DNA of 30,581 nt from a virus: positions 1 to 30,581 of IMG/VR virus record IMGVR_UViG_3300032331_001082. One strand, 5' to 3'. This document shows positions 13,710 to 19,542 of the stretch, piece after piece. The first letter of the stretch is position 1. The number at the start of each line of letters is the position of its first letter. The translations under genes were made by a program, and so were the position numbers. The notes beneath the pieces are model-generated. The model saw only the letters and a list, made by a program, of their open reading frames with translations, had not been told where the DNA came from and searched no databases.

Positions 13710-13738
13710 CTTTTAGTTCACTGCGAGGTAAGACAGAG

Positions 13739-13769
13739 GCCGCCCTTAACGGGGCGGCTTCTTTTTTTG
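13739..13769 (+). terminator. Rho-independent terminator of late block
   Basis: Stem GCCGCCC (13739-13745) pairs with GGGCGGC (13752-13758) over a 6-base loop, followed by TTCTTTTTTT. It closes the plus-strand virion/lysis block 30 bases after its last stop codon. Confidence 0.9.
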
Positions 13770-13772
13770 TGC

Positions 13773-13997
13773 CTACATTTTGTCAGCAGGACAAGGTACA
13801 CATACCAAGTTGCCACAACTAGCACAGGTTGCATCTAGGTAGTACCAACAGATCTCGTAATCATCAAACTGAACTAGCACAGTGAACAGGCTTGAACCGC
13901 AAGGGCATATATGAAGTGGTCCTAATGAACGAAGATCAGAGCCAAATTTAGATGGGAGTTTTTCCTTGTTTTTTCGCAGCGTTGGTAGACGGAACAC
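13773..13997 (-). CDS. Small zinc-ribbon protein
   Basis: A 74-residue minus-strand protein. GTG 13997 has AAGGAT 7 bases upstream. A basic start is followed by CPCG at about residue 32, a beta stretch TVLVQFDDYEICWYYLDATC, then CASCGN and CVPCP. Five or six cysteines in CxCG/CxxC pairs indicate a zinc ribbon. It is the only minus-strand gene between two plus-strand blocks and ends almost against the late terminator. Possibly an early regulator or a moron-type gene; function unknown. Confidence 0.7.
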   Translation of the reverse strand: MFRLPTLRKNKEKLPSKFGSDLRSLGPLHICPCGSSLFTVLVQFDDYEICWYYLDATCASCGNLVCVPCPADKM

Positions 13998-14040: not shown

Positions 14041-14156
14041 TTCGCTGACGCTCATATTGTAATCATACATACCCCTCCGACAAAGCATCTGGTGACTAAC
14101 GGCGTGTCGCTGATCACTATGTGGTATCTTTATCCACAAGAAATAAGGAGGGGACT

Positions 14157-14729
14157 TTGACAACTGTCGTCGGAGTACAAGGTAAAACGTTTTGTATCTT
14201 AGCTGCTGATTCACAAATCACCGAAGATAACTTACGAACTATTTCTTTAAAGACGCCTAAGATAATTGAGAAAGGTCAGTACCTTCTTGCGATCACCGGT
14301 GATACTCGGCCTGGTGATATCTTAACTTACAACTGGAATCCGCCAGCTTACAAAGGTCAGGATGAAGTTCAGTTTATGGGTAAGCGAGTTATCCCATCTA
14401 TCATCAAAACATTTACCGATAACGGGTATGCCTGGAATGATGGTGATAAAGATAAGGATGCTGGCTTTGATTATCTGTTGGCTTTCAACGGATTCATATT
14501 CCATATTGCATCTGATATGTCATTCATTCAATCCGAAGCTAACTACTACGGTATCGGATCCGGTGGTCAGTTTGCTTTAGGGTTTATGTATTCTAAACGC
14601 AGCGATAGATTCTTAGTTCAAGATGAAGCAGCGGAGTTAGCACAGAAGGCGGTAGAGATAGCGTCGTTGCTTGACATCAATACCTGTCCTCCGATACAAA
14701 TAGCAGTACAGAAAAGAAAAGTTAAATAA
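14157..14729 (+). CDS. Proteasome beta/HslV-like N-terminal-threonine protease
   Basis: I choose TTG 14157: AAGGAGGGG lies just upstream at 14145-14153, and this start gives Met-Thr-Thr-Val-Val-Gly, so methionine removal exposes Thr1 as in HslV, with no propeptide. In mature numbering, Asp17 falls in ILAADSQ, matching proteasome/HslV Asp17; a Lys at 34 (PKII) fits Lys33 with a one-residue insertion; GIGSGGQFALGF at 131-142 matches the conserved GSGG loop; and AAELAQKAVEIASLLD is the usual late helix. Length 189 fits HslV (about 175) or a short beta subunit. It should be an Ntn-hydrolase that forms rings and degrades proteins. No partner ATPase (HslU, Mpa/ARC) is visible here. An inactive or regulatory homologue is possible, but all key residues seem present. 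First gene of the early plus-strand block. Confidence 0.85.
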   Translation: MTTVVGVQGKTFCILAADSQITEDNLRTISLKTPKIIEKGQYLLAITGDTRPGDILTYNWNPPAYKGQDEVQFMGKRVIPSIIKTFTDNGYAWNDGDKDKDAGFDYLLAFNGFIFHIASDMSFIQSEANYYGIGSGGQFALGFMYSKRSDRFLVQDEAAELAQKAVEIASLLDINTCPPIQIAVQKRKVK

Positions 14730-14899
14730 TGAATAAGACTTGGAAGGTTGCTCTTCTTGAGGCCTATGACAAAGGTTATCAAGATGGTATAATTGCTGCT
14801 AGAGATACCGATTTAAATTGGGAAGAACAAAATAAATTAAGACAACAATGGATCTTGGATAATCCAGATGCAGATTATGAAGGGTGGATGTCAATATGA
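14729..14899 (+). CDS. 56-residue protein between protease and nuclease
   Basis: ATG 14729 overlaps the protease stop (TAATG), and its own TGA overlaps the nuclease ATG (ATGA). The product is acidic and rich in aromatic residues: MNKTWKVALLEAYDKGYQDG, then RDTDLNWEEQNKLRQQW and NPDADYEGWMSI. The EAYDKGYQDG part resembles short helices in phage small proteins. Unknown function; its tight coupling to the protease makes it a candidate partner or adaptor, which is only inference. Confidence 0.7.
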   Translation: MNKTWKVALLEAYDKGYQDGIIAARDTDLNWEEQNKLRQQWILDNPDADYEGWMSI

Positions 14900-15843
14900 A
14901 AGATTTATTGATTGAGATTTTAAGAAACAAAGATGCGGCCCGTAGTCGCAGTACACAAAAACAGGTTGGACCGTCTGAGTTGGGAGGATGCCGCCGTAAG
15001 GTTTGGTATCGTCTTAATGACCAACCTGAAACTAATGAGAACGAGTTAAAGCTCGCTGCCATTATGGGTACTGCGATTCACGCAGAGATTGAAAAGGCTT
15101 TGGCTATTGCTGATCCAACTGGTGAGAAGTATCAGGTGGAAACAGAGGTTGAATACAATGGAATGAAAGCACACATCGACCTATGGATTCCTGAAACTGG
15201 TGATGTTGTAGATTGGAAAACTGTTAAGGTTAAAAACCTTTCATACTTTCCATCACAACAACAACGGTGGCAGGTGCAGGTGTATGGCTACCTTCTTGAC
15301 AAATCGGGTAAGGGGAAACCTCGTACTGTTAATTTGGTAGCCATCGCTAGAGACGGTGATGAGCGTGATGTAAAGGTTTATTCTGAAGCATACGATCCTG
15401 CTATTGCAGAAGAGGCAATGAACTGGTTAGCTGCTATCAAGGAATCACCTAGCGCACCAGAGCCTGAGAAGGATGAGAATTATTGTAAGTTCTATTGCAA
15501 GTACTATGACGCCACCGGTGAGATGGGTTGCGTTGGCTTAAAAAAAGAACGTATCAAAGAGGCAGAGGTGGTGATTGATGATCCCGATGCCGACAAGAAC
15601 GCTTTGTTATATCTACAACTTGATGAACAAGTTAAGAGTTTAACAAACGCAAGGGATTCAATAAAGACATCACTAGAAGGATTTGCTGGCACTACTCACA
15701 GTGGTATCCAAATTACTTGGACATCTGTGGCTGGTCGCAAGCAAGTCGATTCCGATGAAGTAGAAAAACTTCTCGGTTTCGTACCATACAAACAAGGACA
15801 AGAGACCGCCCGTATCTCTGTCAAACCAACTGGAGGAAAATAA
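14896..15843 (+). CDS. Cas4/RecB-like PD-(D/E)XK exonuclease
   Basis: A 315-residue protein; ATG 14896 overlaps the previous stop. Nuclease motifs are in order: GTAIHAEIE (His62), HIDLW (Asp95), VDWKT (Asp106, Lys108) and a QVQVY motif (Gln126-Tyr130). One cysteine near the N-terminus (GGCRRKVWYR, Cys32) and three after the nuclease core (Cys197, Cys201, Cys212) match the Fe-S cluster arrangement of Cas4 and AddB-type nucleases. It would degrade or process DNA ends during replication or recombination. No other CRISPR gene or array is near, so it is a phage recombination nuclease rather than part of a CRISPR system. Confidence 0.85.
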   Translation: MKDLLIEILRNKDAARSRSTQKQVGPSELGGCRRKVWYRLNDQPETNENELKLAAIMGTAIHAEIEKALAIADPTGEKYQVETEVEYNGMKAHIDLWIPETGDVVDWKTVKVKNLSYFPSQQQRWQVQVYGYLLDKSGKGKPRTVNLVAIARDGDERDVKVYSEAYDPAIAEEAMNWLAAIKESPSAPEPEKDENYCKFYCKYYDATGEMGCVGLKKERIKEAEVVIDDPDADKNALLYLQLDEQVKSLTNARDSIKTSLEGFAGTTHSGIQITWTSVAGRKQVDSDEVEKLLGFVPYKQGQETARISVKPTGGK

Positions 15844-16208: not shown

Positions 16209-16457
16209 ATGCGGGTTCCCACAGAGTTTGAGAACCCGTTATGTGCCGAAGTAGACACAGAGTTATTCTTTCCCGACAAAGGTGAATACACACAGGCAAA
16301 GAAAGCCAAAGAAGTTTGTAGGAGATGCCCACATCTGAGCGAGTGTTTAGAGTGGGCTATCCCAAACGAAAGATTTGGTATATGGGGAGCAACAAACGAA
16401 AGAGAACGTGGCAGGATGAGAAAGAAATCTAAGTTAAGAAGGGAAGAAGTTGCTTAG
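16209..16457 (+). CDS. whiB: WhiB-family transcription regulator
   Basis: An 82-residue protein with the full WhiB signature: Cys12, then Cys37-x2-Cys40-x5-Cys46 to hold a 4Fe-4S cluster, followed by the turn FGIWGATNERER and a basic C-terminus (RMRKKSKLRRE) for DNA contact. WhiB proteins bind the primary sigma factor and redirect host promoters; phage copies are known in mycobacteriophages and in freshwater actinophages. This is the strongest host marker in the window. The gene has a short spacer after the previous one and overlaps the helicase gene start by 8 bases. Confidence 0.93.
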   Translation: MRVPTEFENPLCAEVDTELFFPDKGEYTQAKKAKEVCRRCPHLSECLEWAIPNERFGIWGATNERERGRMRKKSKLRREEVA

Positions 16458-17286
16458 TTTAAGCAGAGCCTGGGGTGGGGTTAATACAAAAGCCACACCC
16501 TTGAAAGATGTTTGGCCTTCTTTAAAGGAAGCTCAGATTAGATTTCGACGTGGACAAGTTTGTATGGTTGCTGCCGCACCCAATGCAGGTAAGTCTATGT
16601 TCGCTTTGGTTTATGCTTTAAAAGCAGATGTAAGAACTTTATTCTTTTCCGCTGACACTGATACCACAACAGTTATGATGCGAGCAGCATCTCATCTATC
16701 AGGTAATTCACAACTAACCGTTGAGAATAATTTAAATGCCAGTCCTAAATGGTATGACAAACACTTTGATAAGATGAAAAACATTCAATGGGTCTTTGAT
16801 TCATCACCTTCATTAGATGATATTGAGAGTGAGATCAAGGCATACATAGAGTTATACGGTGCTGCTCCAGAATTAATTGTTATAGATAACCTTATGAATA
16901 TTGCTGCTGAAACTGATAATGAATGGGCAGGGTTGCGCTCTATTATGATGGAGTTGCACGATATGGCTCGTCATACTGAGGCTTGCGTCTTAGTTCTTCA
17001 CCACGTTTCAGAGCATAGTGAGTACGGTCAAGGTATGAATCCGCCACCTCGTAGAGCTATTCACGGCAAGGTAGCACAACTTCCAAGCCTGATATTAACA
17101 ATGGGTTATGATCCTTTTAGTAAGCATTTAAGGATTGCTGTTGTTAAGAATCGGTTCGGACCACACGCAGCAGATGGATCTGTATCAGTACCTTTGGCGG
17201 TTGACTATGCTCATTGCCAGATAACTGAGAAAGATGCAGCACCTGTTGTATACAAGAAGTTTGACCAAGCATCCATAATACATTAG
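16450..17286 (+). CDS. RecA/DnaB-type helicase ATPase
   Basis: A 278-residue protein from TTG 16450 with AAGGGAAG upstream inside whiB. RRGQVCMVAAAPNAGKSMFAL gives a Walker A (residues ~42-49, first Gly replaced by Ala), FFSADTDTTTVMMRAASHL the Walker A1/helix region, PELIVIDNLMNI the Walker B and CVLVLHHVSEHSEYG the later strand. It lacks the DnaB N-terminal domain, as in RepA-like or phage DnaB-like helicases. It should form a hexamer that unwinds DNA for the split primase encoded at 20240-21158. Confidence 0.8.
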   Translation: MLSLSRAWGGVNTKATPLKDVWPSLKEAQIRFRRGQVCMVAAAPNAGKSMFALVYALKADVRTLFFSADTDTTTVMMRAASHLSGNSQLTVENNLNASPKWYDKHFDKMKNIQWVFDSSPSLDDIESEIKAYIELYGAAPELIVIDNLMNIAAETDNEWAGLRSIMMELHDMARHTEACVLVLHHVSEHSEYGQGMNPPPRRAIHGKVAQLPSLILTMGYDPFSKHLRIAVVKNRFGPHAADGSVSVPLAVDYAHCQITEKDAAPVVYKKFDQASIIH

Positions 17287-17292
17287 GAAACT

Positions 17293-17964
17293 ATGAACAC
17301 TAACCTAGTAATTGTTCCATCAAGAAGCAGACCTGATTCAATAGATCGGGCTGTTAAATTTATAAAAGAAACCAGCATCATTTCAGATATTTGTGTGGCT
17401 ATTGATGATGATCAATCTGATTTATATCCACGCATAGAGGGTGTTATTTATGAGGTAAACCCAAGACTTAGAATGAATGGCACACTTAATCTGGTAGCTA
17501 ATAAGTATGCCGATAAGTATGAAACTATATTCTTTATGGGTGATGATCATCTACCGCAAACCCTGCAGTGGGATCACTTTTTATCAGAGGCAATTAAGAG
17601 TAAGGGATACGGTCTTGCCTATGGCAATGATCTATTCCAGAGTAAGAACCTAGCCACAGCGGTAATGATGAGCACTAATATCATCAAGAGCTTTGGCTTT
17701 ATGGCACCACCTAAGTTAGTTCATTTGTTTATGGATAACTTTTGGATGCTACTTGGTATGGACATTAATGCTATCTGGTACTTTGATGATGTAATCATCG
17801 AGCACCTTCACTTCTTAAATGGTAAGTCAACTGCTGATGCAGGATACCTTGAGGTTAACGCACCTGAACTATCTAATGCAGATAGAGATGAGTTCCGCAG
17901 GTATGTTGATGAGGAGTACAAGGCAGACCTTGCTAGATTTAAGGAGTCGGTAGGTATCAAATGA
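17293..17964 (+). CDS. GT-A-fold glycosyltransferase-like protein
   Basis: A 223-residue protein with LVIVPSRSRPDSIDRAVKFI at the start, VAIDDDQSDLY near residue 35 and FFMGDDHLPQT near 80, which are the nucleotide-sugar and metal sites of a GT-A fold. It belongs with small glycosyltransferases of phages. The next two genes (a second GT-A protein and an NAD-dependent epimerase) form a sugar cassette within the replication block. Substrate may be modified DNA, a glycan or a protein; cannot be told here. Confidence 0.75.
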   Translation: MNTNLVIVPSRSRPDSIDRAVKFIKETSIISDICVAIDDDQSDLYPRIEGVIYEVNPRLRMNGTLNLVANKYADKYETIFFMGDDHLPQTLQWDHFLSEAIKSKGYGLAYGNDLFQSKNLATAVMMSTNIIKSFGFMAPPKLVHLFMDNFWMLLGMDINAIWYFDDVIIEHLHFLNGKSTADAGYLEVNAPELSNADRDEFRRYVDEEYKADLARFKESVGIK

Positions 17965-18707
17965 AACAGGTAATTTCCTATTCTCTTTATGGCCAACATA
18001 TGAAGTTCTTAATTGGTGCTATAAAGAACGCACAGTTAGCTCAGCGATTCTTTCCTGGGTTTACGGTGCGCTTTTATGTAGGAAATTCTGTACCAACTTG
18101 GTGCCGTTCTACCTTAGAACTGTTCCCTAATGTAGAGATGATACGAGTAGATGAACGGGAAGATAGTGTTGCTAGGCTTTGGAGATTCAGGGCTATCTTT
18201 GATCCAGAGGTAGATGTAGTTCTATCAAGGGATGCTGATGCCCGCCTATCTTATAGAGAAGCAATAGCACACCAAGAGTTTTTAGATTCACCTTATGGTT
18301 TTCATATCATTAGAGATCACCCAACAGGACACGGCTACCTTATCTCTGCCGGTATGTTTGCTTGCAAGACTAAAGATATGCACTTCTTTGAAAAGTTAAT
18401 GAACGAAACTCCTATGAGGGATACATATATGCAAGACCAAGAGTTCTTGTCTAGTCAGATCTATCCGCAGGTAGCAGGTAATTGTTTGATCCACGATCCT
18501 TACTATAACTATCAGCCATCAGAACCTAGCAAGAAGACAATGATCCCTCGCAAGAAGATCAACACCGTCTGCCATATTGGAGCAGCATTAGATGAGAATG
18601 ATGTCTTTGTGTATCGAGCTGACCTTGAAACATCATTACAGGAATCAGGCCACGTTAAATATATATACGATTGGGGTACAGATGAAGATCTTAATTACGG
18701 GAAATAA
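17961..18707 (+). CDS. GT-A-fold glycosyltransferase, DXD type
   Basis: A 248-residue protein overlapping the previous gene by 4 bases (ATGA). It begins KQVISYSLYGQHMKFLIGAI, has FTVRFYVGN and a clear DXD in VVLSRDADARLS, and GHGYLISAGMFACKTKDM as an acceptor-side loop. The pattern resembles family-8 or capsular-type transferases. The last ~25 codons overlap the epimerase start at 18682. It likely acts together with the flanking transferase and epimerase. Confidence 0.75.
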   Translation: MKQVISYSLYGQHMKFLIGAIKNAQLAQRFFPGFTVRFYVGNSVPTWCRSTLELFPNVEMIRVDEREDSVARLWRFRAIFDPEVDVVLSRDADARLSYREAIAHQEFLDSPYGFHIIRDHPTGHGYLISAGMFACKTKDMHFFEKLMNETPMRDTYMQDQEFLSSQIYPQVAGNCLIHDPYYNYQPSEPSKKTMIPRKKINTVCHIGAALDENDVFVYRADLETSLQESGHVKYIYDWGTDEDLNYGK

Positions 18708-19542
18708 AGGATTTGTTGGTAAGTATTTTACCGAAGAGTTATCTGAACTGCCTAACATAAACATCACTGGTGCTGATATCAAAGATGGTATTGATTGCAG
18801 AGATCTGTTTAAGAGAGATGATACTCAGTACGATCTAGTGATTCACCTTGCTGCTATCGTAGGCGGAAGAGAAACTATTGAAGGCAGACCATTAGCAGTA
18901 GCTGATAACTTATCTATTGACTCTGAGTTTTTTCAATGGTGCTTAAAGACTAAGCCTCATAAGATAGTTTACTTCTCATCCTCAGCAGCGTACCCAGTAT
19001 CGTTGCAATGTGATAAGAATATAAAGCTAAGAGAGTTTGATGTTAACCTTAAATTCCCAGGCGCACCTGATATGACATACGGTTGGAGCAAATTAGTTGG
19101 TGAATATCTTGCCCAGTTTGTACCAAATGTCCATATATTTAGACCGTTTTCTGGGTATGGATGGGACCAAGATCTGACTTATCCCTTCCCTATGTACATC
19201 AAACGAGCAGTAGAACGCAATGATCCGTTTGAAGTGTGGGGTCCTGGCACACAAACACGAGACTTTATACATATGAAAGATGTTATTAATGCTGTACTTG
19301 CTGCAGTAAGGGAAGGCATTACCGATCCTACTAACTTAGGAACTGGTAGATCAACATCATTTTTGGAGTTGGCAAAGCTAGCGAGTGAGGCAGTTGGATA
19401 TACACCAGAGATTAAAACTAATCCCGATAAGCCTGTCGGTTGTATGTATAGAGTTTCAGATCCAAGAAAGATGCTAGAGTTCTACACTCCAAAGATTACA
19501 TTAGAGCAAGGCATAGCAGAGGCGGTGAAGAAGTTTGGCTAA
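18682..19542 (+). CDS. NAD-dependent nucleotide-sugar epimerase/dehydratase
   Basis: A 286-residue extended short-chain dehydrogenase. ATG 18682 puts the Rossmann motif ILITGNKGFVGKYF directly at the N-terminus. LVIHLAAIVGG, FSSSAAYP (catalytic Ser) and the YGWSK catalytic pair (Tyr-x3-Lys) are all present, and HIFRPFSGYGWDQ, WGPGTQTRDFIHMKDV complete the fold. It would epimerise, reduce or dehydrate an NDP-sugar, giving the donor for the two upstream transferases. Start overlaps the previous gene by 26 bases. Confidence 0.88.
   Translation: MKILITGNKGFVGKYFTEELSELPNINITGADIKDGIDCRDLFKRDDTQYDLVIHLAAIVGGRETIEGRPLAVADNLSIDSEFFQWCLKTKPHKIVYFSSSAAYPVSLQCDKNIKLREFDVNLKFPGAPDMTYGWSKLVGEYLAQFVPNVHIFRPFSGYGWDQDLTYPFPMYIKRAVERNDPFEVWGPGTQTRDFIHMKDVINAVLAAVREGITDPTNLGTGRSTSFLELAKLASEAVGYTPEIKTNPDKPVGCMYRVSDPRKMLEFYTPKITLEQGIAEAVKKFG

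Follow-up and report, generated by a model that had tools for sequence, protein, structure and literature searches.

Several described proteasome homologues resemble, to different degrees, the phage protease analyzed here. The beta-proteobacterial proteasome homologue (BPH; structures 5ovs, 5ovt and 5ovu) likewise carries an N-terminal Thr1 and apparently works without an unfoldase (PMC8665760), but it is a chromosomal, bacterial protein and its identity to the phage protease is only 22–26%. The AAH proteins share with the latter their place in group I, a compact subunit, the lack of a propeptide, numerous phage copies and hosts which include actinobacteria, a likeness that is set by the published description and not by alignment (PMC8665760). 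However, the 2021 survey did not find AAH in any Actinobacteria-specific phage (PMC8665760), whereas hundreds of actinophage-like contigs encoding a group I-like protein are described below. PPH, a homologue of phages and hosts, is also phage-encoded but comprises about 140 residues and is devoid of the second helix, while the protein studied here has 190 residues, possesses this helix (helices at 51-59 and 70-88 in the model) and belongs to another host group. HslV has the same MTT start, catalytic triad and GSGG loop; the phage protease, by contrast, scores far under the HslV equivalog cut-offs, and its carriers lack an HslU-type ATPase. Finally, the phages gathered in PHROG_1040 (among them Geobacillus virus E3, Tunturi_5, pT24 and DSL-LC01) encode proteins matching the same profile, most other matches being from larger phage genomes (~98–385 kb) while the actinophage sequences form a clade of their own. 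In one of the known phages, Aeromonas phage 2L372X (NC_048770), two adjacent genes (114931-115482 and 115500-23) are both annotated as "peptidase HslV family" and may form a pair, as a phage proteasome homologue made of two subunits. Among all these homologues, a propeptide has been reported only for proteasome beta and HslV (PMC8665760).

The window, i.e., the whole 30,581-bp virus record that was analyzed, covers part of a phage genome, near-complete relatives of which are about 40 kb long; it shows no DNA similarity to sequenced phages. Its open reading frame at 14157..14729 (plus strand, TTG start, TAA stop) encodes a 190-residue protein with the translation (M)TTVVGVQGK...AADSQIT...TPKIIE...GIGSGGQFALG, in which the initial annotation had recognized a proteasome/HslV-like threonine protease. 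This assignment is now confirmed: the protein is a proteasome/HslV-type Ntn-hydrolase, probably of group I, with BPH as its nearest solved relative. It matches Pfam PF00227 (Proteasome; E=9e-9, 35.6 bits, cut-off 22.4) and, over residues 1-188, PHROG_1040 "peptidase HslV family" (E 3.2e-25), while it falls short of the equivalog models for archaeal proteasome beta (33.1 bits, cut-off 224) and HslV (26.8 against 137 and 24.1 against 157.75 bits) and matches no actinobacterial PrcB model. A profile built from 21 relatives retrieved BPH (E 1e-9) and HslV as the closest solved proteins. The structure prediction and comparison suggested in the initial annotation gave the same answer, as the AlphaFold (AF2) model computed with 28 aligned relatives (pLDDT 89, pTM 0.85) adopts the alpha-beta-beta-alpha fold of proteasome beta subunits. 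Its top Foldseek match is BPH (1e-12), and BPH 5ovt also ranks first by Z score (Z 20.4, 174 aligned residues, 26% identity), with the 20S beta subunits at Z 19-20. In the superposition on 5ovt, model residue 2, a threonine, falls on chain residue 1. Within a viral structure library, several phage proteins match the model, including one from the actinophage Daredevil of Gordonia.

The N-terminus of the protein is well defined. A Shine-Dalgarno sequence, AAGGAGGGG (14145..14153, plus strand), is located 3 nt before TTG 14157, and close relatives also have purine-rich sites ahead of the protease start. The codon of the predicted nucleophile, Thr1, follows immediately (14160..14162, plus strand), and a Thr-Thr pair directly succeeds the homologous start in 213/213 relatives with an intact N-terminus, the start codons of which are ATG (137), TTG (42), GTG (32) and ATA or ATT (2). 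The loci L041, L197, L212, L215 and L216 apparently use ATT or ATA as protease start, followed by Thr-Thr. An initiator Met preceding Thr is removed by methionine aminopeptidase. The in-frame GTG at 14121 was considered as an upstream start and rejected, the frame before 14157 being unconserved in relatives, many of which have a stop immediately ahead of the start. Hence, of the two possibilities contemplated in the initial annotation, a TTG start liberating Thr1 without a propeptide agrees with all relatives, and a start further upstream finds no counterpart in them. That an exposed Thr1 would be a special feature of this protein did not hold, as it is the ordinary rule for this group (PMC8665760).

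The catalytic residues of the superfamily (a Thr or Ser nucleophile, Asp17, Lys33 and Gly47) are all present, the lysine being K34 with a one-residue shift. Among 226 distinct sequences (mature numbering), T1 is found in 222/223, the exception having Ser, D17 in 225/225 and both K34 and G47 in 226/226, while S134 is conserved in 184 and replaced by Thr in 35. The shifted lysine and the in-register GIGSGG loop had thus been read correctly from the window alone. In addition, dN/dS values of 0.03-0.06 against the seven nearest relatives indicate purifying selection. As far as can be judged from sequences, this selection and the near-invariant active site argue for a working enzyme and not a decoy. 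Whether this enzyme would cleave peptide bonds deserves consideration, as the superfamily also includes connectase (PMC8665760), and the protein might conceivably be an amidase or a connectase-like protein ligase. We regard such chemistry as very improbable: the model is that of a compact protein and has the elements of the proteasome core, the helical insertion which connectase has between strands 3 and 4 is absent, and the alternative occupant of the same genomic slot, described below, is metallopeptidase-like.

The protease belongs to phages of actinobacteria, as had been proposed from the window alone. WhiB was found in 18/20 protease-bearing phage records tested, and hundreds of freshwater viral contigs together with cultured Planktophila phages carry the protease of this clade, so that the search for Ntn-hydrolases in other actinophages, advised at the outset, was fruitful. 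Among named phages, it retrieved two records under the name ct2KA10 as well as DSL-LC01, which comes from a lake and has been assigned to Actinomycetia. One of the ct2KA10 records, OX376641, has the assembly name LanE43-AprF5 and is therefore phage F5, which was isolated on 'Ca. Planktophila' LanE-43 (PMC10202952); the other, OX376640 (39,112 bp), fits its sister phage E7 (PMC10202952). The protease is not named in the main text on F5 and E7 (PMC10202952). In the phylogenetic tree, window-type, F5-type and DSL-LC01-type proteases form one clade (bootstrap/SH-aLRT 100/99) which stands apart from other phage HslV-like proteins, E. coli HslV appearing as a long branch. Phage copies of proteasome homologues as such were already known (PPH and AAH; Fuchs 2021), and what is new is an actinophage-specific clade of proteasome-like proteases. 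In the 129-kb genome of DSL-LC01, the HslV-like gene (L083:5001-5954) is directly followed by a WhiB gene, and its product ends in a Lys/Arg-rich tail, about 30 residues long, which is absent from the window protein. A search for cellular homologues, conducted with narrow patterns, returned one weak match, to a bacterial protein, among 84,980 species; no cellular source has thus been found, although divergent sources are still possible. Plasmids gave matches at 27-29% only, the defence databases searched gave none, and the literature search retrieved nothing on this locus or on a protease swap in phages.

Since the host is actinobacterial and the superfamily is shared, the protein could be thought to join, replace or block the host 20S proteasome, or to use the host Mpa/ARC ATPase, and the initial annotation had indeed suggested that it may take the place of the 20S particle, hijack it or poison it. 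Of all explanations weighed here, we consider this one the most doubtful. Its equivalog scores, 33 bits for the proteasome (cut-off 224) and 27 bits for HslV (cut-off 137), are far too low, its nearest solved relative forms a stand-alone ring, and both BPH and HslV are double rings made of a single subunit. No alpha-type subunit accompanies it; the 23 apparent tandem (alpha/beta) protease pairs obtained by linkage clustering proved to be chance upstream ORFs. Its active site is kept, though a poison subunit need not keep one, and the unrelated HExxH protein which substitutes for it in some relatives could not join a proteasome. Furthermore, an AAA_2 unfoldase (HslU-type) was found in 0/17 near-complete phage genomes, the control genomes being positive, which extends to these relatives the earlier remark that the window holds no ATPase partner. 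Matches to PF00004 (AAA) in six sister-clade genomes were set aside, as their position and their length are those of the DnaB-like helicase. The 56-residue ORF located downstream (14729..14899, plus strand), whose start overlaps the protease stop (TAATG) and which belongs to no significant family, had been put forward as a possible partner; it lies behind the protease in only 16/133 loci, a count that may be low, because proteins of this length can escape even sensitive searches. With no AAA+ unfoldase found and this small gene seldom conserved, a hijacked host proteasome is unsupported.

In the window, a tail/lysis module ends at a strong terminator-like hairpin (13735..13762, plus strand; 12 pairs, 8 of them G-C, and a T run), followed by a divergent small Cys-rich ORF (13773..13997, minus strand; zinc-ribbon-like, CPCGS...) for which family searches gave no match. 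Then come the protease, the 56-residue ORF and a PD-(D/E)XK exonuclease (Cas4/RecE-like; 14896..15843, plus strand; PHROG_1674 5e-29, PDDEXK_1 6e-8, Cas4 9e-8). The Cys-rich ORF and the exonuclease constitute the left and right borders of a slot which holds the protease in 126/134 window-type loci. Beyond the exonuclease are found genes for a gp49-like protein, a WhiB-like regulator typical of actinobacterial hosts (16209..16457, plus strand; PF02467 5e-19), a DnaB-like helicase (16450..17286, plus strand; PHROG_243 5e-72), which is the P-loop ATPase of the block and not an AAA+ unfoldase, a primase and a sigma factor. Within the same replication-side block, positions 17293-19542 encode two glycosyltransferase-like proteins and a sugar epimerase. 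In locus L539, extra genes are located between protease and exonuclease, one of them PP-loop/PAPS-reductase-like (VKHVVMFSGGIGSWAAA), and the slot thus accepts insertions too. No plus-strand promoter was recognized by consensus upstream of the protease gene. The protease gene is the first one past the lysis terminator and precedes those for the exonuclease, WhiB and DnaB, so that its early expression in window-type phages is plausible, in line with the initial annotation; this part of the proposal does not extend to the sister clade, in which the gene lies behind the portal gene.

F5 and the window relatives are distant kin with a largely shared gene order, in which the protease gene is placed differently. 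In the F5-type sister clade, it directly follows the portal gene in 81/81 loci found via the protease and in 67/80 found via the portal, the remaining 13/80 having no Ntn gene nearby, in some cases through a lack of downstream DNA. A place behind the portal is the usual one for a head-maturation protease. The sister clade thus gives some ground for a role in virion morphogenesis, the protease processing a prohead or ejection protein. Nonetheless, this appears unlikely: despite the similar gene order, the window-type gene lies outside the morphogenesis genes, beside those for replication, and in DSL-LC01 the gene sits among small non-structural genes, adjoining whiB. A portal-capsid place, with presence alongside that module, is found in the sister clade only. 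Moreover, some relatives with the same portal as the F5-type phages have an empty slot behind it, and two of them, G032 and G034, are near-complete genomes from which both the Ntn protease and the HExxH protein are absent. These two genomes also imply that protease activity is not essential across the whole phage group.

A clue to function comes from what replaces the protease. In three near-complete window-type relatives without an Ntn gene, the exact slot holds another protein of 113-132 residues (L397:15159-15557; L393:11923-12264, minus strand; L395:12547-12903, minus strand; family L403-L482) marked by the motif VLMHEVTHAVI or one closely similar. In this family, H53, E54, H57 and a downstream E74/E75 are invariant, and the helix following the motif has a conserved RKRFDVEEVCD stretch. 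Two of the three proteins score just over the cut-off of 27 bits for DUF6782 "putative metallopeptidase" (28.3 and 27.7 bits); further matches are weak ones to M78/IrrE and SprT-like models and one to PHROG_1233, of unknown function. The structural neighbors, IrrE, minigluzincins and SPRTN-like proteins, are weak as well (best Z 5.5, Foldseek E 0.18), and the protease status of the HExxH protein rests therefore on motif, conservation and marginal family scores, which together make it a putative small metallopeptidase. It was found in none of the sequenced phages. The Cys-rich left neighbor and the other border of the Ntn slot frame it in 45/80 loci, the gene lying behind the DnaB-like gene in many of the remaining ones.

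The two proteins were never found together: 0/483 loci hold both, an Ntn gene was found in 0/43 HExxH contigs, and a search of 48 records for the HExxH protein matched only the four Ntn-free window-type ones. Among 50 portal-anchored contigs, 13 have the Ntn gene and 4 the HExxH gene, none having both; the slot is not covered in the other 33, as no exonuclease is shown there. In all 17 portal-anchored window-type contigs which cover it, the slot is filled, never with both and never with neither (13 against 4), a pattern which stands on few cases. In the exonuclease-anchored set, which comprises the closest exonucleases only, the Ntn gene is present in 77/77 contigs with slot DNA; in one contig, additional genes separate it from the exonuclease. 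In a tree based on exonuclease and DnaB, HExxH carriers emerge at two separate places inside Ntn lineages, and a tree joining them into one clade can be rejected (p-AU 9e-81 at a log-likelihood difference of 107.6). The exchange between both proteins has thus occurred at least twice, a number which recombination of the flanks with the slot could inflate or blur.

Collectively, the fold, the conserved active site, the signature of purifying selection, the way in which the slot is occupied and its two or more exchanges make it probable that the protein is an active, stand-alone threonine peptidase of the phage and that the window-type slot, by holding either this enzyme or the HExxH protein, supplies a fixed proteolytic activity. 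Since the slot contains one or the other, protease activity appears to be a fixed part of the window-type replication-side block. After removal of the initiator Met, the amine and hydroxyl groups of Thr1, together with Asp17, Lys34 and the oxyanion site at Gly47, would cleave peptide bonds. This would most likely take place in a ring that identical subunits form by self-assembly, no ATPase being supplied by the phage for the purpose. The targets may be specific, unfolded or partly folded proteins of the host or the phage. A general degradation machine, converting host proteins into amino acids after unfolding by a host chaperone or AAA+ protein in the manner of HslV, might also be envisioned: the fold is HslV-like, the absence of a phage unfoldase leaves only those of the host, and the hosts, which are streamlined bacteria, inhabit lakes poor in nutrients. 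We nevertheless judge this to have little likelihood, as the swap with a small, predicted minimal zincin that forms no compartment fits bulk degradation badly. Together with the lack of an AAA_2 unfoldase, this makes limited or unfolded substrates, processed without ATP, likelier than bulk degradation.

The position of the stand-alone peptidase at the head of the window-type replication-side block further suggests intracellular action, for instance to eliminate a host protein or a defence protein or to control a regulator, and a limited set of targets would be compatible with a part in taking over the host, in countering its defences or in controlling a regulator of the phage. The HExxH protein would then be an active protease performing the same job. 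More tentatively, and with somewhat less than even confidence, we propose that a common group of freshwater actinophages requires one intracellular proteolytic step, supplied at this locus by unrelated enzymes acting on the same target without an ATPase. The two proteases could also serve two different functions sharing a favored site.

The 2021 catalogue of viral proteasome homologues gave no hint of their function and included no actinophage with AAH, the nearest candidate family. Here, the protease emerges as a constant gene of freshwater actinophages of the window type. Its swap for an unrelated HExxH protein at a single locus provides a functional clue, namely that the phage seems to need proteolysis itself. 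These proposals are testable because phage F5, which carries a relative of the protease, has been grown in culture with an isolate of 'Ca. Planktophila'. If correct, they would define the first role for a viral proteasome homologue. The actinobacterial hosts of these phages are among the most abundant freshwater bacteria, and a substrate shared by both enzymes would tell what phages must destroy or activate in them.
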